Source of the DNA: Pseudomonas fragi
Lineage (GTDB): Bacteria; Pseudomonadota; Gammaproteobacteria; Pseudomonadales; Pseudomonadaceae
Reading direction: 5' to 3'
DNA: 64,000 nt
Assembly (NCBI RefSeq): GCF_900105835.1
Contig: NZ_LT629783.1
Location: 5,008,205-5,072,204 of the forward strand
Below the pieces are notes generated by a model. That model ran no database searches. It had not been told where the DNA came from and saw only the letters and a list, made by a program, of their open reading frames with translations. A program made the position numbers and the translations under genes. The stretch's first letter is position 1. Every line of letters starts with the position of its first letter. This document shows positions 45,503 to 55,121 of the stretch, one piece after another.

Positions 45503-45587
45503 GTAGGGGCGGGCTTGCTCGCGATGCAGGCGACGCGGTGTCTCAGTTGACCCGCGCAGAAGCCATCGCGGGCAAGCCGGCTCCCAC
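45503..45587. repeat. REP pair after ligA
   Basis: GGGGCGGGCTTGCTCGCGATGC and the inverse ending GGCAAGCCGGCTCCCAC frame ~45 bp. It has diverged from the other copies (GGGGCGGG, GCCGGC). Confidence 0.8.
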
Positions 45588-45734: not shown

Positions 45735-45847
45735 GGTGACCCTATCGGTCCCCCCGCAACGATTACCCGTGAACCTGGTCAGATCCGGAAGGAAGCAGCC
45801 ACAGCGGGAACATTGTGTGCCGGGGTGTGGCTGGTGGGGTTGCCTCC
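45735..45847 (+). ncRNA. ffs: 4.5S / small SRP RNA (intact copy)
   Basis: The Ffh-binding core with GGTCAGATCCGGAAGGAAGC and AGCCACAGCGGG matches bacterial SRP RNA. The 5' end GGTGACCC pairs with GGGTTGCC at the 3' end, closing a single long hairpin of ~113 nt. It guides membrane-protein translation with Ffh and FtsY. The 3' 78 bp are repeated at 55044-55121: the RNA gene is the insertion site of the adjacent element. The copy here keeps the full 5' arm and promoter, so it is the functional one. Confidence 0.95.
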
Positions 45848-45850
45848 ATT
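45773..45850 (+). repeat. attL: 78-bp direct repeat, left end of island
   Basis: Identical to 55044-55121, from ACCTGGTCAG to TTGCCTCCATT. It contains the 3' two-thirds of ffs, so integration restored the RNA. Confidence 0.92.
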
Positions 45851-45927: not shown

Positions 45928-46226
45928 TGCACTGTGCTGACGATCTTACCTTGATCATTTTTCTTTCGCCATCAAAGCCATCTAGGTTGCATTGCCATTG
46001 CCGAAACTCACCTTCAAGCCTCGAAGGCCGAAATTTCTGTGAGTTTTCGTTTCTGAATTGTTCTTTGCGCGGGATGTATTCCATTGCCCTCATTTCCGGT
46101 AGACGCGGAGATGGCACTTTGATAGCTTGGCTCGCTTGGTTAATTTCCGGTGCGTAAGCTAGCGCTTCATAAAGCTTGCATTCCCTTTCCCTTTCCCTTT
46201 CCCTGTCTCGCAAGGAGCGATACTCA
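45928..46226. other. Island left region without a confident gene; CCCTTT microsatellite
   Basis: Frames on both strands are open (plus 45924-46157; minus 45920-46213) but neither has a recognisable product or SD. The minus one has a protein-like composition and could be a truncated gene. At 46182-46204 the unit CCCTTT is repeated about four times just before the ParA SD; length change there would alter spacing of any promoter upstream. Confidence 0.45.
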
Positions 46227-47276
46227 TTGGCTCTTCAAATATCGTTGTTCAACCACAAGGGTGGCGTAAGCAAGACCACTACCGCATTCAACTTGGGCTG
46301 GATGCTGGCTCAAAAAGGTAAGAAGGTGTTGTTGGCCGACTGCGATCCGCAGTGCAATCTCACGGGAATGGTGCTTGGTTTCAAGGGTAGCGATGACTTC
46401 GCTCAAATATATAACTCGGGCGGAGTAAGAAATATTCGAGACGGGTTAGCGCCAGCATTCGAATCCAGACCTGCGCCAATTCTGCCGGTACAATGTGAAG
46501 CTATCAGCGGTCAGGAAAACTTGCATCTGATCCCTGGTCACATCGGACTAGCGGAGTATGAAGTTACCTTGGGGATTGCTCAAGAGTTATCGGGGTCTCT
46601 TGTTACTCTTCAAAATCTTCCTGGCTCGTTTAGTCATCTTTTCCAGTTAACTGCAAAAGAGTACGATTGTGACTACATCATTGTAGACATGAGTCCGAGT
46701 TTGGGGCCGATTAATCAAAACTTGCTGATGACTAGCGACTTCTTCTTGGTTCCAATGAGTCCTGATTATTTTTCGGTCATGGCCACTGACTCATTGGCAA
46801 AAGTGCTTCCAAAGTGGAAGGCCTGGGCTAATGCCGCCCACTCTAATCCGGTTTTGCAGAACGCGACTTATCCCTTTCCAGTAGTAGAAACTCAGTTCCT
46901 CGGCACTGTAATACAGAAGTACCGTGTTCGTGAAGGAACAACTGCTTCTGCGGCCTTCCAGAAATGGATTGATGAAATTGAGTTAGGCGTGAAAACAAAG
47001 CTAGTGCCGGCGCTGGACGCCTGTGGAATGATGATGGCGCCGGAAGCTTACAGCTCAATTGGTGTCGAACCGGGAGAGCCACTTCTCCAGATGTCTGATT
47101 TCAATGGTTTAATTGCTCTGTCGCAGAAACACAAAGTTCCAGTCTATGCGTTGAGTGATGAGCAGTTGGAGCAAACGGGTATCGTGCTGGAGCGAACGAA
47201 GAAGTCGATGGAAAAGTTTGGGGCTCTATTCTCGGAGGCGGCGGACCGAATTATCGCGCTGACCGACTATGCTTAA
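46227..47276 (+). CDS. ParA/MinD-like P-loop ATPase
   Basis: A 349-aa protein with the deviant Walker A KGGVSKTTT at residues 11-19, the ADCDPQCN switch (37-44) and Walker B YIIVD (150-154). Family members are membrane- or DNA-positioning ATPases, most often for plasmid partition. No ParB homologue or parS is visible. Instead the stop overlaps by 8 bp a HEPN-type gene, suggesting one functional unit. The start is TTG 46227, chosen because AAGGAGCG lies 7 bp before it; the longer frame runs into the CCCTTT repeat. The C-terminal ~120 residues (from MMMAPEAY) are unlike short ParAs and may bind the partner. Confidence 0.85.
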   Translation: MALQISLFNHKGGVSKTTTAFNLGWMLAQKGKKVLLADCDPQCNLTGMVLGFKGSDDFAQIYNSGGVRNIRDGLAPAFESRPAPILPVQCEAISGQENLHLIPGHIGLAEYEVTLGIAQELSGSLVTLQNLPGSFSHLFQLTAKEYDCDYIIVDMSPSLGPINQNLLMTSDFFLVPMSPDYFSVMATDSLAKVLPKWKAWANAAHSNPVLQNATYPFPVVETQFLGTVIQKYRVREGTTASAAFQKWIDEIELGVKTKLVPALDACGMMMAPEAYSSIGVEPGEPLLQMSDFNGLIALSQKHKVPVYALSDEQLEQTGIVLERTKKSMEKFGALFSEAADRIIALTDYA

Positions 47277-47868
47277 GGCTTTGGAGGCGGCTCGTGAAAG
47301 CCTCCTTAGGGTTGAGCACTTAGGTGGTCTCTACAGTGCTTTACAATCATTGACAACTTCAGCTATAGATTCGAGTGACTTGCTTCGCGCTCAAGTGGTG
47401 TTGGCAGTGAGTGCGCTAGATTTTTATATACATGAAGTCACAGTCATGGGGATGTTGGAGGTTATGAAGGGTGAGCGCGCTTCAACTCCTGCATTCGATA
47501 AGAGCCGTGTTTCAGTTGGTGCAATGCTTGGTGGGATGCAGACGCAAACATATGATTGGTTTGAGGCTGATGTGCGGGAGCGGCATAGTTTTCTGTCGTT
47601 TCAGCAACCAGATAAAATTGCCGATGCGATTCGGCTATTCTCTGGTGTGAAATTATGGGAGTCAGTTGCTGCCATAGTCGGAGATAATGATGTAAAGGAC
47701 AGGCTTAGATTGATTGTGGATAGGAGAAACAAGATTGCTCACGAGGCTGACATATCGCCAAGTTATCCGGGGGAGCGATGGCCAATCACGCAGTCTGATG
47801 TCGCAGAGATTACTTTGTTCATTAGAGGTATTGTCGAGGCTATACACGTAAGTGTGGCTTCAAAATAA
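47269..47868 (+). CDS. HEPN-type protein, likely RNase toxin-like partner of ParA
   Basis: A 199-aa all-helical protein. The early helix AQVVLAVSALDFYIHEV and the late motif RNKIAHEAD (R153-x4-H158) fit the HEPN superfamily, whose R-x4-6-H residues form an RNase site in many toxins and defence effectors; it looks closest to the RiboL-PSP-HEPN group, from memory. It starts within the last 8 bp of the ParA gene, so expression is coupled. A non-catalytic HEPN role remains possible. No antitoxin of known type is adjacent. Confidence 0.72.
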   Translation: MLKALEAARESLLRVEHLGGLYSALQSLTTSAIDSSDLLRAQVVLAVSALDFYIHEVTVMGMLEVMKGERASTPAFDKSRVSVGAMLGGMQTQTYDWFEADVRERHSFLSFQQPDKIADAIRLFSGVKLWESVAAIVGDNDVKDRLRLIVDRRNKIAHEADISPSYPGERWPITQSDVAEITLFIRGIVEAIHVSVASK

Positions 47869-48237: not shown

Positions 48238-48861
48238 TTACACTGATGTTTCTCGCTTGATCCTGTACACCGTTGCAACGCCACACTCAGCCAGTTTGGC
48301 AATTTCATCAGCAGACATCTTTGGATGTTTCTGCATCAGTGACTTGACCTTTTCCCACTTGGCGGCGTTCCTGCCTTTGCCTGCTGGCTTCCATTCAGGA
48401 TCAGCAGCCTTCTTATTCTCCAACCCTTGCTTGATGCGCTCCACACGCTTCTCTTGATCCAGTCGTGCCATGGTTGCCATCAGGTCGATCAGCATGTTGT
48501 TGATCACGTCCATGATTTGCCCGGTGATTCCTTTCGCTTCAACCAGCATGTGACTCGTGGGTAAATCTGCAACAACAAGACGCAACCCCTTAGCCTTGAT
48601 GGTGGCCTTGAGAGTGTCCCAGTCAGCTTGTGAAAGGCGACTCAAGCGGTCAACAGACTCAACCAACAGCACGTCACCACTCTCAGCAGTATCGAGCAAG
48701 GAAAGCAGCTCAGGGCGGTTGAGCTTGGTTCCGCTGATGTTCTCGGCGTACACGCCAGTAATGGTCAGCCCCTTCTCAATAGCGAATGCCTCAAGGGCCA
48801 CCTTGGCACGGTTGGCGTCCTGATCTTTGGTGGAGGCTCTGAGGTAAAGGTGGGCGTTCAT
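48238..48861 (-). CDS. Serine recombinase (resolvase/invertase family)
   Basis: A 207-aa protein: catalytic domain with YLRAST (Ser10), VYAENISGTKLNRPELLSLL, GDVLLVESVDRLSR, and a C-terminal HTH (MSADEIAKLAECGVATVYRIKRE). Family: Tn3/Hin-type small serine recombinases that resolve or invert DNA at paired sites. ATG 48861 with AAAGGA is chosen over GTG 48864. Inverted repeats just upstream (48876-48945) could be its site or operator. No transposase gene accompanies it. Confidence 0.9.
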   Translation of the reverse strand: MNAHLYLRASTKDQDANRAKVALEAFAIEKGLTITGVYAENISGTKLNRPELLSLLDTAESGDVLLVESVDRLSRLSQADWDTLKATIKAKGLRLVVADLPTSHMLVEAKGITGQIMDVINNMLIDLMATMARLDQEKRVERIKQGLENKKAADPEWKPAGKGRNAAKWEKVKSLMQKHPKMSADEIAKLAECGVATVYRIKRETSV

Positions 48862-48875
48862 CACTGATTTCCTTT

Positions 48876-52728: not shown

Positions 52729-52980
52729 CTAGCTAGGGATCAGCGTTTTTTTATCGTTTCGGATCAATGAATCAAGGAAGCTATGGGAGACTTTCGCCAG
52801 CTCACCAATATCTACCAAGAGGCCCTTGGCTCGCGCCTTGGTTGCTAGCTTGAAGTACTTCGATAAAGTAAGTTCGCCAGCCTTGATGAAGAGTGTCTTG
52901 GTATTCTTAGTTGGTTCTGCTGGTGCTGTGACAGTTCCTTTGATCAAGTTGCTTTGTTTGTCGATAACGATGAAGTTCAT
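52729..52980 (-). CDS. Unrecognised island protein, 83 aa
   Basis: A basic small protein (MNFIVIDKQSNLIKG..., FKLATKARAKGLLVDIGELAKVSHSFLDSL) with two or three likely helices. Start codon overlaps the stop of the zinc-finger gene (ATGA, 4 bp), so the two are coupled. A palindrome CCCTAGCTAGGG covers its stop codon. Confidence 0.7.
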   Translation of the reverse strand: MNFIVIDKQSNLIKGTVTAPAEPTKNTKTLFIKAGELTLSKYFKLATKARAKGLLVDIGELAKVSHSFLDSLIRNDKKTLIPS

Positions 52981-53228
52981 GGATGCACGCAGCCGGAGGC
53001 ACTCGTTGCTCTGTTGATGATCAGTTGATTGATCAATAGGTTGAGGTTGTCAGCTTGCCTCTTGAGGATGTCGAACTGCGAGATTGTCAGCTTCAATTTC
53101 ACAGAGATTGTTGGTGTCTGCAATTGTCGCCATGTCTTACTTCGACAAGCGTGACTACAGTGGCGAGCGTTACCATACTTGTTGGCAAGCGAGATACCGC
53201 ACTGCTTGCAATTGTGAATATTGGGCAT
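52977..53228 (-). CDS. Small zinc-finger protein, 83 aa
   Basis: Cys7-x2-Cys10-x13-Cys24-x3-Cys28 forms a zinc-ribbon-like knuckle (CKQCG...HCSHAC) at the N terminus, followed by a helical tail (KLTISQFDILKRQADNLNLLIN). ATG 53228 is chosen over an upstream frame because AAGGAGG lies 8 bp before it. It could bind DNA or RNA. First gene of the leftward group, preceded by a terminator-like hairpin and a strong promoter. Confidence 0.75.
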   Translation of the reverse strand: MPNIHNCKQCGISLANKYGNARHCSHACRSKTWRQLQTPTISVKLKLTISQFDILKRQADNLNLLINQLIINRATSASGCVHP

Positions 53229-53288
53229 AGGGATGTCCTCCTTTGGATAGGTGATTGTTTGACTTGCGACTAGGTTTTCTTGCAAGCG

Positions 53289-53580: not shown

Positions 53581-54879
53581 TTAGTCAGATTTGATGTGTT
53601 CAAGAGCTTCCTGCATTGCTTTCAAGGGTGTCCTGCTGCCATAAACGCCAAAAGTGACGGCACTGTCTTCATGCCCAACGATTCTTTTGATCAGCGAGTC
53701 TTGTACGCCAGCATCCCTTAAGTCATCGATGAGCGTGTGCCGGAAGCTGTGGAATGTCTTCTTGCTGTCATCAATGCCGCGCTTAGCCTTGTACCTCCCA
53801 AACCACTTGGATGGGGCATGCCCCAGCTTTCCCCTTACAGGTTCAAGTTCAGGGAACAATCTATGGCCTCCACTGGCTCTGGCTGACTCAACATGCCGCA
53901 GTAACCCCAACCCAACCAGAAGCGGGTGTACTGGCAGCATGCGTCGGCTGCTTGCATTCTTCAGCTTTTGACCTTCGCTGCTGTCATCTATGCGGATGCA
54001 GAGAATCCCTTGCTGTTCAACAAAGTCATCGACTCGTAGCTGACACAACTCCTCTAGTCTTGCGCCGGTGTAGCGGCCCAGCAATGGTATCCAGTAGCGC
54101 CAAGGATGTTTGCGAGCTTCAGTTTTGAGTGCATCCAGATCGAGAAGGGTGGTTAGGTCATGTTGTTCAAATGACAAGCGAGCTTCCTTTGCAGAGCCGG
54201 TCATCATCTTGAGTCCGGTCAAGGGATTGTCTTGGATGTACCCGTTAGTTTTGCACCAGTTCATAAATGCTGAGAGTTTGCGCAGTCGGTTGTTCACCGT
54301 AACCGCTGTGACGGTCTTGTAGGTGCTACCAGACTCAACCACCTGTAGCAGCGTCTTGCCTTTGAACTCAGGTCGTAGTCCGAAGTATTGGGGGCAACGG
54401 CTCAAGCGATCTTTAAGCAGGCGTGCTTGATTCGCATCAAATGCAGCAATAGGCATATCGCCCATCAACTCAAATAAGTCTCGCAGTGAGCGTTCCACTT
54501 CGTGAGTGCTTACTTCTCGCCATGTGCCTCCGCGTTTACCTTCCTCGACGTATCGCTTGGATAAGGTACCAAGGGTAGGACTGTCGATGACTTGCTTGGG
54601 TGAAATGGCTGAGGGGCTCCGTACGACAGATCGAATTGCTGGCGCTGGCGTTGCGTCTCGCCACCCGACACACAGTGTACGGAGCGTCTGAAGGTCTGCT
54701 AGGGGGTGTTCAAGCAAGTGGCTGTGGATTCGTTGGGCTAAGGAGGAAGCAAGAAAAGTTGCAGGTTGACGAGACCTGAGATTCAGACTCAGACGTAAAG
54801 TGTTACACCTTGGGAAAAGGTGCTTCGGAAGCCTGAGGTTCAGGTAGTAGAAGGCTCCGCGACGTATCAGGTAGGCCAT
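53581..54879 (-). CDS. int: Tyrosine recombinase/integrase of the island
   Basis: A 432-aa phage-type integrase: N-terminal arm-binding region, SAM-like core-binding domain (~residues 100-225), catalytic domain with Arg274 (YTGARLEELCQL), His377-x2-Arg380 (HSFRH), His403 (GHED) and Tyr413 (FGVYG). All catalytic residues are present, so the enzyme is probably active. It lies next to attR, its 5' end 165 bp from the repeat. ATG 54879 is chosen over GTG 54888; neither has a good SD. No excisionase was recognised, though a small basic protein of the leftward group could serve. Confidence 0.92.
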   Translation of the reverse strand: MAYLIRRGAFYYLNLRLPKHLFPRCNTLRLSLNLRSRQPATFLASSLAQRIHSHLLEHPLADLQTLRTLCVGWRDATPAPAIRSVVRSPSAISPKQVIDSPTLGTLSKRYVEEGKRGGTWREVSTHEVERSLRDLFELMGDMPIAAFDANQARLLKDRLSRCPQYFGLRPEFKGKTLLQVVESGSTYKTVTAVTVNNRLRKLSAFMNWCKTNGYIQDNPLTGLKMMTGSAKEARLSFEQHDLTTLLDLDALKTEARKHPWRYWIPLLGRYTGARLEELCQLRVDDFVEQQGILCIRIDDSSEGQKLKNASSRRMLPVHPLLVGLGLLRHVESARASGGHRLFPELEPVRGKLGHAPSKWFGRYKAKRGIDDSKKTFHSFRHTLIDDLRDAGVQDSLIKRIVGHEDSAVTFGVYGSRTPLKAMQEALEHIKSD

Positions 54880-54913
54880 GTGTGACACCCGTGTGTTACA
54901 GCTAAGTGTGACA
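54880..54913. promoter_or_regulatory. Candidate integrase arm-type sites, right end
   Basis: GTGTGACACC (54880-54889), GTGTGTTACA (54891-54900) and CTAAGTGTGACA (54902-54913): three copies of a GTGTGAC-type word, also found at the left end. Confidence 0.5.
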
Positions 54914-55013: not shown

Positions 55014-55121
55014 GCAACGATTACCCGAGCATGCTTGCATGCCACCTGGTCAGATCCGGAAGGAAGCAGCCACAGCGGGAACATTGTGTGCCGGGGTGTG
55101 GCTGGTGGGGTTGCCTCCATT
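55014..55121 (+). pseudogene. Truncated/altered ffs remnant with attR
   Basis: GCAACGATTACCCG (55014-55027) matches intact ffs, then 16 nt (55028-55043, with GCATGC-TT-GCATGC) replace TGA of the intact copy, then the 78-bp repeat (55044-55121) continues to the native end. The 5' closing arm is missing, so it cannot form the full SRP hairpin. Most likely attP-derived sequence joined to the original ffs 3' end. Its promoter was not found. Confidence 0.85.
55044..55121 (+). repeat. attR: 78-bp direct repeat, right end of island
   Basis: Identical to 45773-45850. Confidence 0.92.

Follow-up and report, generated by a model that had tools for sequence, protein, structure and literature searches.

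A ParA-like ATPase gene overlapping a HEPN-domain gene in Pseudomonas fragi: a candidate regulator of exchangeable toxic effectors

Introduction

ATPases of the ParA/MinD type are known to position DNA and cargo. In a 64,000-nucleotide stretch of the Pseudomonas fragi contig NZ_LT629783.1 (positions 5,008,205 to 5,072,204, here called the window), a gene for a ParA/Soj-like ATPase overlaps a gene for a HEPN-domain protein at one end of an integrative element. The locus raises the question of what a ParA-type ATPase does beside a putative RNase. A first-pass annotation regarded the two genes as the best candidate in the window for an undescribed defence or toxin-type system. We find that the pair recurs widely, and that relatives of its ParA also stand in front of other toxic enzymes. 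With moderate confidence, we interpret it as a two-gene module, in which ParA would regulate, or sense on behalf of, an exchangeable toxic effector, here a HEPN RNase, in the service of abortive infection or element maintenance. If this is true, the gating of toxic enzymes by ParA would be a new way of sensing trouble in bacterial immunity.

The two proteins of the window

The ParA protein matches the Pfam family AAA_31 (6.5e-31) and the PHROGs family phrog_164, labelled 'ParA-like partition protein' (3.1e-45). It has both the deviant Walker A motif KGGxxKT and the predicted ParA fold, features that it shares with the partition ATPases Soj and McdA and with DIP2308 (3pg5), and it is about 100 residues longer than Soj. 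Unlike the partition ParAs, it has an extra conserved region, its relatives have toxic-enzyme partners, and it is found without ParB or parS. A domain scan of the nine open reading frames (ORFs) of the element yielded no ParB-type domain, and a scan with the parS consensus gave no match at up to three mismatches. The first-pass annotation had likewise seen neither in view, and the reading of the locus as a partition system was dropped for this reason. In PADLOC-DB 2.0.0, the ParA protein matches no system model; its similarity to two PDC-M28B models is confined to a short stretch around the P-loop.

The downstream protein matches Pfam HEPN_RiboL-PSP (1.2e-9) and phrog_13503, a family of unknown function (6.5e-34), and has no match in PADLOC-DB 2.0.0 at E up to 1. 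The HEPN fold, on which the first-pass annotation had staked its interpretation, is supported: the protein has the four-helix arrangement, HEPN-MNT is among the closest solved folds, and the R153-x4-H158 motif is present as described there. The R-x4-H catalytic motif is kept in all 97 ParA-HEPN pairs collected (copies of the same phage counted separately), and residues R40, D51, H55, R152, R153, N154, I156, H158, E159 and D161 are invariant in 91 aligned HEPN proteins. We regard the window HEPN as a probable RNA-cutting toxin. PF18735 matches all 91 aligned proteins, and 25 of them, the window protein not included, also weakly match PF18737 (MAE_28990/18760-like). Four PF18737 places in three Microcystis genomes had no ParA of the window family within the flanks examined.

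The 8-bp overlap of the two genes and the TTG start of ParA behind a Shine-Dalgarno sequence, both noted in the first-pass annotation, proved correct (Table 1), and AAGGAG with TTG is also found in the Pseudomonas relatives L015 and L029 (locus numbers of this form are ours). Since there is no Shine-Dalgarno-like motif just before the HEPN start in the window sequence, and since the frames overlap, translation of the two genes is probably coupled. A promoter scan upstream of the pair found no site. Compared with L015 and L016, both genes have far fewer differences that alter an amino acid than silent ones, with silent sites saturated, and a chance overlap of ORFs was rejected because the proportion of nonsynonymous differences is far below that of synonymous ones. 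We did not adopt the longer ParA frame that starts at 46176, because it crosses a CCCTTT repeat and because relatives start just before the FNHKGG motif. The repeat, a short tandem array at 46180-46205 just 5' of the ParA ribosome site, gives rise to this false longer start.

Distribution of the pair

A contig scan with one genome per species identified 329 HEPN relatives, and the counts that follow concern the best 80. A ParA ORF lies directly upstream of the HEPN gene in 76 of these 80, and both genes are full length in 71. The four exceptions include L036 and L070, which have 0 and 207 bases upstream, and L038, which has no ParA. In a Dehalococcoidia metagenome-assembled genome (L068), ParA is split into two pieces separated by about 2.4 kb, and the final piece adjoins an open HEPN frame. 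Going by their record titles, the 80 loci come from Pseudomonadota, Cyanobacteria, Planctomycetes, Poribacteria, Chloroflexi, Acidobacteria, Bacteroidota, Bacillota and other groups. When starts are set by the longest ORF, the two genes overlap by 17 bp in 41 and by 8 bp in 14 of the 76 adjacent pairs.

In smaller samples, HEPN relatives were found in six of 398 genomes of the same genus (the window's own included), with ParA adjacent in four of the six, and HEPN profile matches in five of 398 Pseudomonadota genomes, with ParA adjacent in four. In viral contigs, ParA stands beside HEPN in 17 of 36 loci. Named carriers of the pair are the phages Pf1 and WX-TY and plasmids of Burkholderia glumae; in the Pf1 record (AY324828), the HEPN frame is not annotated. 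The distance matrices of the two proteins are correlated (Mantel r 0.72, n=79, with 0.23 the largest value in 999 shuffles). The pair is thus no curiosity of a single strain, the outcome that would have undone the first-pass interpretation; it recurs in genomes, phages and plasmids.

Two observations concern HEPN relatives in other settings. In same-genus genomes and viral contigs (L010, L011, L109-L111, L115, L117-L119), a related HEPN gene without ParA lies directly 3' of a putative prophage integrase gene, an arrangement observed in part of these nine loci. In L106, the HEPN relative is flanked on both sides by genes that we read as type I restriction-modification genes.

Effectors behind related ParA proteins

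A ParA profile search of the 398 Pseudomonadota genomes gave hits in 30 genomes at E up to 1e-30, and thus 30 loci. The gene after ParA encodes a HEPN protein in four of them, a SIR2-like protein in three (L175, L181 and L185; Pfam SIR2_2, best 8.9e-28), a RelA/SpoT-like protein in two (L163 and L183; Pfam RelA_SpoT, best 2.7e-14) and a cyclase-like protein in one (L161). The cyclase assignment of L161 is weak: there is no Pfam match and no meaningful match to solved structures, and the label derives from the motifs FLDVLGFS and FSDSI, read by eye. Among plasmid records, SIR2 genes follow ParA in L198, L199 and L202, and a gene called cyclase-like by its likeness to L161 follows it in L203. 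A Salmonella plasmid has a DNA methyltransferase gene and then ParA-SIR2, and a Spirosoma plasmid has a helicase gene and then ParA-SIR2. Of the ten non-HEPN effectors from Pseudomonadota and plasmids, five were named by Pfam (three SIR2, two RelA/SpoT) and two, both SIR2, by record annotation. Those SIR2 proteins that were compared with PADLOC are similar to ThsA and DSR-type NADases and to LmuA, and among solved structures that of L175 resembles ThsA and DSR2.

Further searches were seeded with SIR2-linked ParA proteins, so that a high share of SIR2 is expected by construction. They added 76 loci (near-copies counted, one locus without a ParA match dropped), in which ParA is followed by SIR2 in 24, by a RelA/SpoT-like gene in eight, by HEPN in one, by another gene in 17, by none in 18 and by a contig edge in eight. 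The 32 SIR2 and RelA/SpoT effectors of this set were named by profiles built from the earlier seeds, and 18 of these loci have frames with a 4-bp overlap. Altogether, and again with near-copies counted, SIR2 genes are found behind ParA relatives in 30 loci, RelA/SpoT-like genes in 10 and putative cyclase genes in two, in the same gene order.

In two ParA trees, the HEPN-linked proteins form one clade (79 rows in the first and 35 thinned rows in the second; support in the Shimodaira-Hasegawa-like approximate likelihood ratio test, SH-aLRT, 99 and 98), as do the SIR2-linked (100 in both) and the cyclase-like ones (100 and 99), and RelA/SpoT-linked proteins appear in two places. The trees are quick ones with SH-aLRT support only, and they do not settle the order of effector gains. 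On our reading, a single ParA family may have acquired new effectors repeatedly and retained each of them for a long time. A ParA family with several toxic-enzyme partners suggests a reusable trigger for shutting the cell down.

Solo ParA relatives

Some members of the ParA family are 'solo', i.e. have no recognised effector beside them. In the P22-like phages SE1 and ST160 (L311 and L312), a solo ParA that is 35% identical to the window ParA lies in the immunity region, behind a gene for a CI-like repressor and a DUF3024 gene. This protein (gp23) and Orf317 of phage Pf1, at 35-40% identity, belong to the same ParA family as the window protein; gp23 lacks an adjacent effector gene, whereas Orf317 has a HEPN partner. 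Genes behind a phage repressor are typically expressed in lysogens, where they often have an exclusion function against other phages, as does lambda rex, and by analogy the solo ParA of SE1 and ST160 appears to occupy a rex-like position. A relative of the SE1/ST160 CI protein is found at most 2.5 kb upstream, on the same strand, in 10 of 26 solo viral loci, and not in the other 16. When 93 proteins (two SE1 controls and 91 of the 116 listed neighbours) were assigned to PHROGs families, repressors and regulators came out on top. Plasmids also carry orphan ParA-like ATPases of 354 residues with no effector behind them (L194, on the IncX1 plasmid NZ_CP103537, and L200, on an Aeromonas plasmid). 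In L194, the solo ParA stands beside a separate ParA/ParG pair of the plasmid, and is therefore probably not its partition ATPase.

Discussion

The pair has a precedent. Anantharaman et al. (2013, PMC3710099) predicted a dyad of a HEPN protein (MAE_18760 family) and ParA/Soj as a toxin-antitoxin system, which they called 'less common', and proposed that HEPN is the toxin and ParA an antitoxin acting by conformational change or phosphorylation. The dyad shares its gene order, its two superfamilies and an active HEPN motif with the window pair, which very likely belongs to it or overlaps with it. The window HEPN matches the Pfam RiboL-PSP model, not the MAE_28990/MAE_18760 model, and the sections of the article on the dyad mention no SIR2 or RelA/SpoT partner of ParA. 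The first-pass annotation was therefore right that the HEPN-ParA pair is real, and the 76 adjacent pairs make it a widespread one, but the pair as such cannot be called undescribed; what is new is the exchange of effectors behind ParA. We also add the extent of the pair, its invariant catalytic set, the lack of the HEPN-MNT tyrosine and the existence of lineages without a P-loop. Together with the exchange of effectors, these points make a common regulator or sensor a better reading of ParA than a partition ATPase.

In the open-access literature, we recognised no later description of the ParA-HEPN dyad, although later work may have been missed. The portions covered of PMC6813254, PMC11341870, PMC7159879, PMC2701414 and PMC5512222 contain no such dyad. 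Inoviruses carry toxin-antitoxin pairs (Roux et al. 2019, PMC6813254), and a Pf defence module is reported in the Pf KKP paper (PMC11341870); the word HEPN is absent from the covered text of both. MinD/ParA-like domains occur in NTP-dependent conflict systems (eLife 2020, PMC7159879), where the covered text lists them as effector domains and predicts them to be inactive. In contrast, most ParA proteins of the window family keep the P-loop and stand beside an effector gene. In the HEPN anticodon nucleases PrrC and RloC, an NTPase controls a HEPN nuclease, as we propose here; according to PMC3710099, these are single proteins with an ABC-type ATPase, whereas the window has two proteins and an ATPase of the ParA type.

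HEPN-MNT (HepT-MntA) systems similarly have an upstream nucleotide-handling partner and a downstream HEPN RNase, with a nucleotidyltransferase in the place of the ParA ATPase. Their motif, R-x4-H-x-Y, includes a tyrosine that is AMPylated. In the window protein, H158 is followed by E-A-D (R-N-K-I-A-H-E-A-D), and AMPylation of a tyrosine at this place is therefore impossible. Membership in HEPN-MNT was dropped, as both the motif tyrosine and an MNT partner are lacking.

How might the module work? We suppose that ParA and HEPN are produced in coordination and bind each other, and that within this complex ParA, perhaps only when in one of its nucleotide states, keeps the HEPN RNase inactive. Phage infection or loss of the element, plausibly sensed through the ATP- and DNA-dependent switch of ParA, would then free or activate HEPN, RNA would be cut, and growth would stop. 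The cell would thus respond by abortive infection or superinfection exclusion, and the mobile element would be maintained as a side effect. The surroundings of the pair were compared with controls: 106 neighbours in 18 loci matched 65 PADLOC families at 1e-15, and 109 control proteins, from 18 stretches at least about 43 kb away on the same contigs, matched 32 (the numbers count families, not proteins or loci). Both sets hold defence genes; among the 25 families listed for each are type I restriction-modification, MADS and PifA for the neighbours, and DpdF, PsyrT and Cas12f for the controls.

Several findings weigh against this interpretation. Many ParA relatives have no recognised effector, namely 20 of the 30 Pseudomonadota loci, 35 of the 76 further loci (the 18 with none and the 17 with another gene) and all 26 solo viral loci, which are non-redundant. 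Conversely, HEPN relatives occur without a ParA of the window type in two same-genus genomes (L010 and L011), in one locus of the Pseudomonadota sample (L190) and in 19 of the 36 viral loci. In the HEPN tree, the rows without ParA need two changes and sit among ParA-linked rows. Of 24 PF18735 places in 150 genomes, only the window's own has a window-type ParA within the flanks examined; as PF18735 proteins mostly lack ParA, the ParA-linked HEPN proteins must be a subfamily. Finally, the KGGxxKT P-loop is kept in 91 of the 97 paired ParA proteins and missing from six (L072, L075, L081, L084, L090 and L092), and ATP switching is therefore not required everywhere. In a cyanobacterial clade of three of them (L075, L084 and L092, Crocosphaera), the P-loop is destroyed (FNYEF..SQT) and the HEPN R-x4-H motif is intact. 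The persistence of such proteins suggests that, for control, binding may matter no less than ATP turnover.

These ParA proteins, which still precede an intact HEPN motif, would also suit a pure addiction module, i.e. a type II toxin-antitoxin pair that retains the element, phage or plasmid, with ParA as a complex-forming antitoxin that answers to no infection signal. We judge this unlikely, yet it deserves to be taken seriously: the pair is carried by an integrative element, by the phages Pf1 and WX-TY and by Burkholderia plasmids, the partner lies upstream of the toxin as in type II pairs, and the idea agrees with the 2013 proposal (PMC3710099). However, copies on chromosome-titled or several-Mb contigs (L016, L025, L041, L056 and L089) speak against it, and so does an antitoxin that is larger and better conserved than the toxin (mean column identity 57% for 11 ParA proteins versus 43% for 13 HEPN proteins). 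The variety of effectors and the solo ParA proteins behind temperate-phage repressors fit sensing better.

The position near a CI repressor or beside an attachment (att) site has also led us to consider control of the element's own genes, with ParA-HEPN as a regulator of lysogeny or expression and HEPN cutting a specific element transcript. The annotation of Pf1 Orf317 and SE1 gp23 as putative regulatory proteins points the same way. Such a role is improbable in view of chromosomal copies in several phyla and of the lack of a common element backbone: when the seven other ORFs were compared with the collected loci, whose flanks are short, the single match was to the resolvase, in L194. By far the least credible alternative is that the two genes form a small system for partition or positioning, with HEPN instead of ParB as the ATPase activator and no cleavage of RNA. 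It would account for the ParA fold, but an integrated 9.3-kb element has no need of it, neither ParB nor parS is in view, SIR2 and RelA/SpoT partners would make no sense as ParB, and the catalytic residues of HEPN are invariant.

If ParA does serve as the regulator or sensor of a toxic effector, a wider view suggests itself, which we offer only tentatively. A ParA-type ATPase may serve a whole family of immune systems as their common sensor or switch, having taken on effectors that are unrelated to each other: the HEPN RNase, a SIR2 NADase, a nucleotide synthetase of the RelA/SpoT type and perhaps a cyclase. Phages, plasmids and integrative elements would have spread this family, and solo ParA proteins near the repressor of temperate phages could be exclusion genes in themselves, or decoys that disarm host pairs. 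The exchangeable effectors make the gate idea directly testable, since the same gate would stand over an RNase in one pair and over an NADase elsewhere. Such a gate would also offer a possible function for the gene that Pf1-type, P22-like and other temperate phages carry under the label 'ParA-like partition protein' or 'putative regulatory protein'.

Genomic context of the pair

The element is 9.27 kb long and bounded by a perfect 78-bp direct repeat (Table 1). As the left copy falls largely inside the complete 4.5S RNA gene, the element is inserted in this gene, ffs, at a site between ligA (an ORF read as such) and dnaX (identified by Pfam). The 4.5S RNA of the signal recognition particle (SRP) is a less usual integration target than the tRNA genes. 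No second RF00169 match was found at the gathering score. The ParA-HEPN pair is the leftmost cargo of the element and adjoins the att repeat, in keeping with its placement at one end of a mobile island in the first-pass annotation. In L015 and L029, the pair instead adjoins an apparent tRNA-gene 3' end, read by eye. With the resolvase match in L194 as the only one, the pair looks like cargo and not like a part of a conserved backbone. Besides the genes of Table 1, the element has a gene for a KilA-N protein, and in four further ORFs (83-232 residues) no Pfam family passed the cut-off.

Table 1. Coordinates of the gene pair and of the features of its integrative element, in positions of the window.
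Feature	Position	Strand	Remarks
4.5S (small SRP) RNA gene, complete, ligA-side end, integration target	45743..45839	+	Rfam RF00169, 75.8 bits
Left att repeat, 78 bp	45773..45850	+	100% identical to 55044-55121
Shine-Dalgarno sequence AAGGAG of the ParA gene	46212..46217	+	9-nt spacer to TTG
ParA/Soj-like deviant-Walker ATPase gene	46227..47276	+	349 aa, TTG start, KGGVSKT P-loop
Overlap of ParA and HEPN frames, 8 bp	47269..47276	+	
HEPN-domain protein gene, predicted RNase toxin/effector	47269..47868	+	199 aa, ATG start
Serine recombinase gene (resolvase/invertase family), neighbour of the pair	48238..48864	-	Pfam Resolvase, E 2.6e-25
Tyrosine integrase gene of the element, right end	53581..54888	-	Pfam Phage_integrase, E 1.8e-11
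Right att repeat, 78 bp, part of 4.5S RNA gene, dnaX side	55044..55121	+	

Two minor features were noted in passing. Behind ligA (45503-45560) lies a repeat, at most about 58 bp long, that resembles repetitive extragenic palindromic (REP) sequences and matches 15 other places in the same genome. Within the element, a small ORF (52977-53285) is weakly similar to HNH endonucleases of phages (PHROGs, E 1.6e-4).
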